Of a DNA stretch of 64,000 nucleotides, positions 42,201-45,200 are shown in pieces. A program made the position numbers and the translations under genes. The DNA is from Cristatella mucedo. Taxonomy: Eukaryota; Bryozoa; Phylactolaemata; Cristatellidae. Location of the stretch: assembly GCA_009760855.2 (NCBI GenBank), contig WPIO01000001.1, positions 16,043,001 to 16,107,000 of the forward strand. The letters run 5' to 3'. The notes under the pieces were generated by a model that saw nothing but the letters and a program-made list of their open reading frames with translations, searched no databases and had not been told where the DNA came from. Every line of letters starts with the position of its first letter. Positions within the stretch are counted from its first letter, which is position 1.

Positions 42201-45200
42201 TACGATGTCTAGCCTGGTGGGGCAGTAGCTCTGATCGGTAGGCTGGAGCCAGAGATTGAAGGACCCTCAAAGTGAGTGACAGAACCTGAAAGTCGTTATG
42301 CTGCCTGATTGTGAGCCAGTGCAAGTCGGTGAGAAGTGATGTGATGCGGCAACTGCAATGCTCAGGATAGACAAGCCTGGCTGCAGAGTTTTGTAAATGC
42401 CTTATTACAAAGACCAGGAGACCAGCAAGCAGTGAGTGTTACAGAAGTCGGGACGGGCTATGACAAAAGCATGGACCGCTTTGGATGTAGTACTCTTATC
42501 TAATCAGCCCAGAATTTAAAAAATGTTACGCAGCTGAAAGTAGGCAGATTTGACGTGGCCGTCTAGTGGCAGGTCACTTTGGAGCTAGACACGAGATTTC
42601 GTGCTGATGCTACAGGAAATATGCCGACAGAGCCGATTTTGAGTGTTAAACTTTCTTATTTCTGAGTCACACTTAGTTTGCCCACAGCTTTTGTCTCTCG
42701 ATGCTGGTATATGGAAATCGGTAAGTAAACAGGACAAACGGTTTTTGCTGTTGCTACGATTTGACAAGTACTCTTACATTGCTATAAATAAATATCTGTC
42801 TATGTAGAGGTACATTTCTGACCATTAATAATAGGTCCTAGGATGTCATGCTTGAAACTATCACAAATGTTAGAGGATCAGTCAGCACAATGTGGCAGTC
42901 GTTGGTTGCCTTCATGCAATAACACCAAACTATGCAGCACGTATGTAGGGAGCAGGTGGAGAACTCTGAAATATTTGAAATATGGCATATCTTCCTTGTA
43001 CCCACCTGGGAGAGGCGATATTTTCAGTAAGCAACAGTCACTTTTTTGCTGTTTGGCCTTCTATTTTTCAGCAACTGTCAAGATGTATTCCATTGGCAAA
43101 TTCTGTCACGTACATGTGAAATTTGAAAGCATGGTCTATGTCAGTGGTTCTCAGCCTTCCTAATGCTGCGATCCTTTAATACAGTTCCTCATTTTGTGGC
43201 GATCCCCATATCATAAAATTATTGTATGCAAAATGTGGAAATGTGTTTTCCGATGGCCTTAGGTGACCCGTGTGAAAGGGTCGTTCGACCCCCAAAGGGG
43301 TCGCGATCCACAGGTTGAGAACCATTGGTCTATGTGGTGCTTCATGCTAGTAGGTTAGGCTTAGCAAGTCTGCAAAGTACACTGCAGCTTCAAAAAGCAT
43401 ATGCGTACTGTGTAGTATCAATTGCTAGGTTAGCACGAAGCCTACTAAAGGTGATAGCAAACACGATAAATGAAATGTTCAACTTTGTATTTTACGATCA
43501 CTAGCAGATATACGTGAAATCTATTATTAGAGAACTAATACTCTGTTGCAGTTCACCTTTCGTAATGCTACGTTAGGCCTTTGTATTCCTACAACCAGTA
43601 ATGGCTGTCCACTTGCCTAATTAAATTCACTGGCTATGTGTTCAGATATCGACAACATATTACCATATTTAGTGATTGCTTTTTCTTGCCATGTCTAGGT
43701 GAATACTCGAGTCGGAGTGATAAGAGCAAAGGACTCATCGATGCATGTCTATGTCAACGGTGAGGACCTTGGCATTGCAGCTATTGGACTACCACGGGTA
43801 AGCATGTGGCATACTTTGCACTTAAAGTAGGTGATGCTGTTGTGTGGCCTTCACCATGTGTTCGGAGTTTAGGTGTTGTGTTTGACAAATGCCGAAATTT
43901 TGATCACGTACGATTCCTATCCAAGATTAGGGACTGTCTACCACGGTGGCTTGCAAAAAAATTCGAGTAGCTCCCTGATACTGTCTAGGCTGGATCAATG
44001 CAATTCCATATCGACTGCATTACCGAAAAAACCATTAGACCCCTGAAGATGGGAATGAATATGGCTAAAATAGGCTAGTAACAAATCCCAAAGTTCTTAC
44101 GATGACCCATCAGGCCTGCCATGGCTTGGTCCCTTCATATCTAGCTGAACCAGTTTCTGCCTTCTCAGTCCTGTATGGACAATCAATTAGCTATTCCTCT
44201 GCTTAAAGACCGTTGGAAACAGCTTTTGCTCTGCAGGTCCTAAACTGTGGAACCCATTTCCGCTATTGTTATGCAACTGCATCTATTCTCCTGCTGCCGA
44301 CTGTGACATATTCTTTGCAGCCATCCCGAGCTGCTACTTCCATGTTACTCACTTTCTCAACTCCCTTCCTGACTCAGCTGTGCTTCTCACTTTCTCTCTG
44401 TTGCTTGAGAAGAAGTCTGTTAGCTACCTTATTGGCTACCAAATCTGCTTAGGCTTTGAGTGTGCTATAGAAATATATACTTTGTATACTTACTTTCCTG
44501 CATTACAGCCAGTCAGTCTTTGTGGCTTTGTGGAATTACAGATGAGATACATAAAATTAAATTAAAAAAGAAATTGCTGAGAGCTGCTTCAGGGTTTGGT
44601 TTGTACAGCTGTTGGATTGATATGGTGGAATGCCTTATTTTTAGTGTTTTTTCGTAGATGTCATAAGTTTTCCAAGCATTTGATATGGGAACTACTGTAT
44701 TGCATTGCCTATTACCTCAGTCTGTCAGCTGAAACTTTCATAATTGAAGGTGATACTATCCATGCTATTTGTACATGCTTTGGTTAATGATGGCTTCATC
44801 CTGGATGACAATGCAGACAAGGCGACATTCTGGTAAAATATGCAAGAAAAAGCTGCAAAGGGCTGCAAGATATTTTTAGCAGATGCTCTTATGCTCGGCC
44901 TCTATGATTGGTGACATTGAATGGACTAAGTGCGAAATGTGTGATAAACTTGCGGTCAAGCAGTCTTGTTTAGGTACTTTGGGTTGCCATCACTCGGTGG
45001 TCGGGAGCCGTTGACGGGGATCCTTGATAGCAGGAGTTAGATTTATGACCATGTGTATTAATGTACCCCGGAATAGGCTATTCCGACGAAGCTACTGTTA
45101 GAAATGATCCAGTAAAGGAAATTATCTTCTCATTATATGATTACAACCGACAAGATGGCTCTAAGAGATAGTAGCTTATATTTGTATAAAATCGATCAGT

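Follow-up and report, generated by a model that had tools for sequence, protein, structure and literature searches.

What is a short element resembling a vertebrate transposon doing inside a gene of an animal that is not a vertebrate, and how did it get there? The element lies at positions 43142-43327 of the window, the 64-kb stretch of DNA analysed here (C111:16043001-16107000 of a 572-Mb assembly of 688 contigs, all of which was covered by the genome-wide searches). It resembles SPIN, the standard case of a DNA transposon found across phyla, for which few invertebrate hosts are on record. The preferred reading, to which we give a probability of about 0.88, is that it is a non-autonomous member of the Buster group of hAT elements, an internal-deletion derivative of an ancestral SPIN that was horizontally transferred into a lophotrochozoan-like lineage.

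The element is 186 bp long and is read here on the plus strand. The same octamer, GTCTATGT, which has a central TA, stands on its left (43134-43141) and on its right (43328-43335), so that the 186-bp element with a perfect 8-bp target site duplication described in an earlier note on this DNA is confirmed. Repeat finding returns a direct repeat of 10 rather than 8 nt (43132-43141 and 43326-43335) because the last bases of the element itself are TG. The inverted ends (43142-43157 and 43312-43327) have the 16-nt length first given for them but are not a perfect match, being 88% complementary with mismatches. Between them lie a 5' block (43142-43223) and a 3' block (43243-43327), both homologous to the uncurated SPIN_NA/URR1 reference described below, separated by a short interior (43224-43242). 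At 186 bp the element is too short to encode a transposase. Short, noncoding and multi-copy, with inverted ends and a target duplication, it is a MITE, or non-autonomous DNA transposon, and no second copy was found within the 64-kb window.

Other repeats are present in the same window. At 33814-35141 a fragment of an L2-type reverse transcriptase is present as an inverted duplication, with arms of 488 nt that are 95% complementary and a spacer of 352 nt; three more inverted pairs lie around it (33300-34660), and together they make up a large hairpin. An open L2-type retrotransposon frame of 362 aa is found on the minus strand at 49227-50315; its best match, a metagenome protein, covers 65% of it at 96% identity, and the named matches include fishes. 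Pieces of another hAT transposase frame are spread over 54938-56515, with PF05699 above the cut-off in the last piece and PF14372 below it in the middle piece. A perfect (CA)50 microsatellite lies at 39564-39663.

The element belongs to a large family. A whole-genome search gave 2163 first-look candidates; every one of the 40 that were scored matched, with E values of 2.7e-58 or better and identities of 86-100%, the 100% row being the window copy itself. A 33-base core with up to two mismatches occurs at 471 places in the 572 Mb (227 forward and 244 reverse), and the same pattern read backwards, searched in the same way as a control, occurs at none on either strand. One full copy (L049) was met in 20 arbitrary, evenly spaced 10-kb stretches (200 kb). 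The family thus has at least several hundred copies, which answers the concern, raised at the outset, that the element might be single-copy.

Two samples of copies were drawn. The first comprises 39 further copies with their flanks, on 29 contigs, these being the places that ranked as most similar to the window copy. They start and stop at the same points of the element as it does, and beyond the target duplication their flanks are mostly unrelated (similar 5' flanks in one pair, L009/L010, and similar 3' flanks in four pairs). The second comprises 30 of the 38 exact matches to the 33-base core, picked irrespective of interior; of the other eight, four were already in hand (the window copy, L009, L011 and L013) and four were left unfetched. 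Numerous short non-autonomous copies per genome are characteristic of SPIN, and here a length of about 187 bp is found in 23 of the 30 core-sampled copies.

The case for SPIN itself starts from the ends. The SPIN_NA/URR1 reference used throughout is not a curated entry: it was written down after the window had been read, rather than taken from a database. No SPIN end sequences printed in the literature were found. Against this uncurated reference the family consensus (187 bp, the majority of the 39 copies) is identical at 164 of 167 positions, 79/81 in the 5' block and 85/86 over the final 86 of the 3' end, where the window copy itself scores 79/85 over the 85 positions of its 3' block. When the window copy is aligned whole to the same reference by BLAST, 168 of 222 columns are identical and 41 are gap columns, chiefly in one interior stretch: the reference has about 59 bp of interior for which the window copy has 43224-43242 instead.

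This missing interior provides a check on the uncurated reference, since a stretch absent from the window was recovered in copies chosen blind to their interiors. It was found in two of the 30 core-sampled copies, L089 and L090. In L089 it aligns over 58 columns at 86% (E 6e-14 within the sequences compared), as against a best E of 2.1 for a reversed-sequence control; in L090, before extension, the match was weak and confined to a short stretch (20 columns, E 0.05). Extended outwards, both copies carry the interior of about 59 bp and align with the SPIN reference in two stretches: L089+L104, 279 bp long and bordered by GGCTAGAG on each side, over 138 bp at 89% and 75 bp at 97%, and L090+L105 over 136 bp at 87% and 84 bp at 95%. 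A further match to the interior of the reference near another copy (L019:681-707; 27 columns, 81%, E 0.17) is probably due to chance. Exact-pattern searches of public viral and prokaryote contigs returned no independent SPIN copies; diverged copies would be missed by such patterns.

The identity to the SPIN reference therefore runs well beyond the inverted ends and, in the longer copies, into the interior. With the mammalian SPIN_NA/URR1, in its uncurated form, the family shares about 167 bp of ends at 98% (consensus), the interior of two longer copies and 8-bp duplications; it differs in that its abundant 187-bp form has some 20 bp in place of the interior of about 59 bp, and in that its host is an invertebrate. 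The earlier suggestion of SPIN or a sister element is thus upheld on both ends and interior. The most likely identity of the element is SPIN proper, in an internally deleted, non-autonomous form that sits within an intron of NEURL4 in the host.

The target duplications place it more precisely among hAT elements. In hAT-Charlie elements (Ac group) the target duplication is nTnnnnAn and a central TA is not fixed. Here the left and right 8-bp flanks agree at six or more of eight positions in 28 of the 39 first-sample copies, compared with 129 of 1482 pairs (8.7%) made from mismatched copies, and at six or better in 18 of 22 copies of the second sample, for which 22 of the 30 copies were counted. 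The motif of the 39 copies approximates to nTCTAGRn. Position 4 is T in 33/39 left and 35/39 right flanks and position 5 is A in 36/39 left and 33/39 right; in the second sample the central TA is present in both copies of the duplication in 16/22 cases and in either in 20/22. The T at position 2 and the A at position 7 are both weaker (24/39 and 18/39 of the left flanks). The central TA is accordingly the strongest signal, contrary to the hAT-Charlie pattern, although this distinction is one of relative strength, as nTCTAGAn satisfies both patterns. The 8-bp duplication with central TA is the Buster form, nnnTAnnn, which PMC3499496 gives for TcBuster, a different element, in describing a Buster group that includes SPIN. 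On the grouping in that paper and on the target sites, the Charlie label first attached to the element has been dropped.

The insertion lies within a host gene. NEURL4-like exon stretches with NHR domains are found on the plus strand upstream (40931-41152, E 1.7e-05) and downstream (43708-43794, E 5.2e-06) of the element, their limits being approximate, so its position between exons of one gene is as first described. The upstream stretch is overlapped by an open reading frame at 40937-41284 with a sub-threshold match to PF07177 (E 0.011), and Neuralized domains (PF07177) mark further NEURL4 exons elsewhere in the window. A model of 1145 aa was spliced by hand from these exons. Its best-scoring relatives (best 120 of 617) are from molluscs, a brachiopod and annelids at 43-48% identity, whereas vertebrate rows within the same 120 are mostly at 40-42%, with one catfish reaching 47% across less of the protein. 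A quick 39-row tree, with SH-aLRT as its sole measure of support, puts the host among the lophotrochozoan rows (22 rows, SH-aLRT 96), but its branch is long (1.29) and the placement of so long a row carries a warning of uncertainty.

The mitochondrial gene COI gives a compatible picture. Among the 120 matches listed for the COI of the mitochondrial contig, one relative is 95% identical and the named ones reach 82% at most; most of these are gastropods and octopuses, and nemerteans, annelids and a phoronid are also represented. From NEURL4, a single long-branched gene, together with COI, the host is an animal outside the vertebrates, probably a lophotrochozoan, and is not close to any annotated species in the database searched. 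On the mitochondrial contig (C688, 21,008 bases) the same open frames are repeated in both orientations, e.g. at 2537-2821 minus, 12176-12460 plus and 14291-14575 plus; either the mitochondrial DNA itself is duplicated and inverted here, which would be unusual, or the assembly is at fault. COX1 stretches with in-frame stops on large contigs (C166:4375626-4376390, C549:2641741-2642010 and C299:634220-634540) are likely nuclear copies of mitochondrial DNA.

Several other accounts of the element have to be weighed. The ends of hAT elements resemble one another, the first 13 or so bases being common to many, and an unrelated host MITE could have converged on the common motif CAGTGGTTCTCAA. MER5A, a mammalian hAT MITE used as a control, does match the family there, but the similarity ends with the inverted-end motif that both have in common (24 columns and 28 bits against the consensus, as against 215 bits for SPIN, both references being uncurated). 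Homology over 81 bp and 86 bp at the two ends (98% in the consensus), continuing into the interior in longer copies, argues against convergence, and a convergent MITE, rejected on the MER5A control and its match to the inverted end alone, is very unlikely. The comparison with an unrelated MITE, proposed at the outset as a safeguard, thus comes down on the side of SPIN. Vertebrate DNA that had contaminated the assembly, or been wrongly joined into it, would likewise show up as a vertebrate-type element in an invertebrate genome. Here, however, the element sits with its own target duplication in an intron between two coding exons of the host NEURL4, on a contig of 24.8 Mb; a further 39 copies are dispersed over 29 contigs with nearly all their flanks unrelated, and both the deletion and the consensus are this genome's own. 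Contamination, also feared in the earlier note, was rejected on the host-gene intron, the element's own duplication and the copies across 29 contigs, and has next to no chance of being correct.

If the element is neither convergent nor foreign to the assembly, the issue becomes one of descent. hAT elements are ancient and the host may carry other families of them, as the transposase pieces in this window suggest; a Buster-type relative of SPIN might then have been inherited vertically from the bilaterian ancestor. The noncoding ends, at about 98% identity to vertebrate SPIN (uncurated reference), are however incompatible with vertical descent since the protostome-vertebrate split, and together with a median copy divergence of 0.107 they fit a burst long after it, so that this account is extremely improbable. 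Identity of noncoding sequence is the standard argument for horizontal transfer of SPIN, and against the uncurated reference it is here far above vertical expectation. No other account explains the presence of SPIN in this genome nearly as well as horizontal transfer, and the transfer into an invertebrate that was originally proposed is supported by the end identity of 98% to the uncurated reference and by a host that NEURL4 and COI place outside the vertebrates. The direction of transfer is a separate matter. Long copies with a vertebrate-type interior occur alongside a numerous, derived deletion subfamily, as they might if the present lineage or an aquatic relative had been the source or an intermediate rather than a tetrapod the donor; but donor and recipient cannot be separated from one genome, and this origin is considered unlikely.

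Under horizontal transfer of SPIN, the history of the family may be pictured as follows. An ancestral SPIN would have entered the lophotrochozoan-like lineage, and a longer SPIN would then have lost its interior while keeping both ends, leaving a short derivative with no room for coding. This derivative was presumably mobilized in trans, by cut-and-paste, by the transposase of an autonomous SPIN copy then present, each insertion duplicating an 8-bp nnnTAnnn target. The window copy would be one such insertion, carried in the intron of NEURL4 as a neutral passenger.

The undamaged duplication had originally been taken to mean that the insertion is not very old, a conclusion that has to be given up. 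Perfect 8-bp duplications are found in 7/39 copies of the first sample and 5/22 of the second, the window copy aside, and an undamaged duplication therefore says little about age. Divergence is a better guide. Seven of the 30 core-sampled copies were excluded from this count: the long variants L089 and L090, L088, with its 5' part shortened, and L079, L084, L091 and L100, in which the match ends within the element. Outside the core, the remaining 23 differ from the consensus by Kimura distances of 0.061-0.221, the median being 0.107, or 0.087 when CpG sites are left out; three copies (L076, L087 and L102) lie above 0.2. The window copy, measured in the same way, stands at 0.093, near the median. 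The first sample gives a mean of 0.063, with 0.075 for the window copy; that mean is too low because the sample was selected for similarity to the window copy. The window copy is a member of ordinary age in its family.

SPIN hosts include mammals and reptiles, as well as a bug and a snail, and Lymnaea is a further host. The bug, Rhodnius prolixus, is an invertebrate host like the present one but a blood-feeding insect, and its SPIN (Gilbert 2010, as given in PMC11614815) is attributed to transfer from or with tetrapods. The snail Biomphalaria glabrata is a lophotrochozoan, and PMC5440852 describes some 1,000 copies of a hAT element with significant identity to SPIN, a copy number of similar order to that found here, and reports no intact transposase. 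The present host is not Biomphalaria or a close relative, the NEURL4 of Biomphalaria being 44% identical and in a separate clade of the tree. A search for papers on SPIN in a comparable host found none; most subscription papers lay outside its reach, so the occurrence is not claimed to be unreported. What has been found is a new SPIN host lineage, or at least one for which no description was found, of an element that is itself known.

A broader possibility, tentative and on balance rather unlikely, is that aquatic lophotrochozoans beyond the pulmonate snails had SPIN circulating among them and may have served it as a reservoir or bridge, and that this genome holds long and perhaps autonomous copies besides the deletion subfamily. 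The kind of phenomenon is unchanged by a new host. A distant host that is not an insect, in which copies number in the hundreds, long variants occur and target sites can still be read, would add a new point from which the routes, dates and direction of SPIN transfer may be considered.
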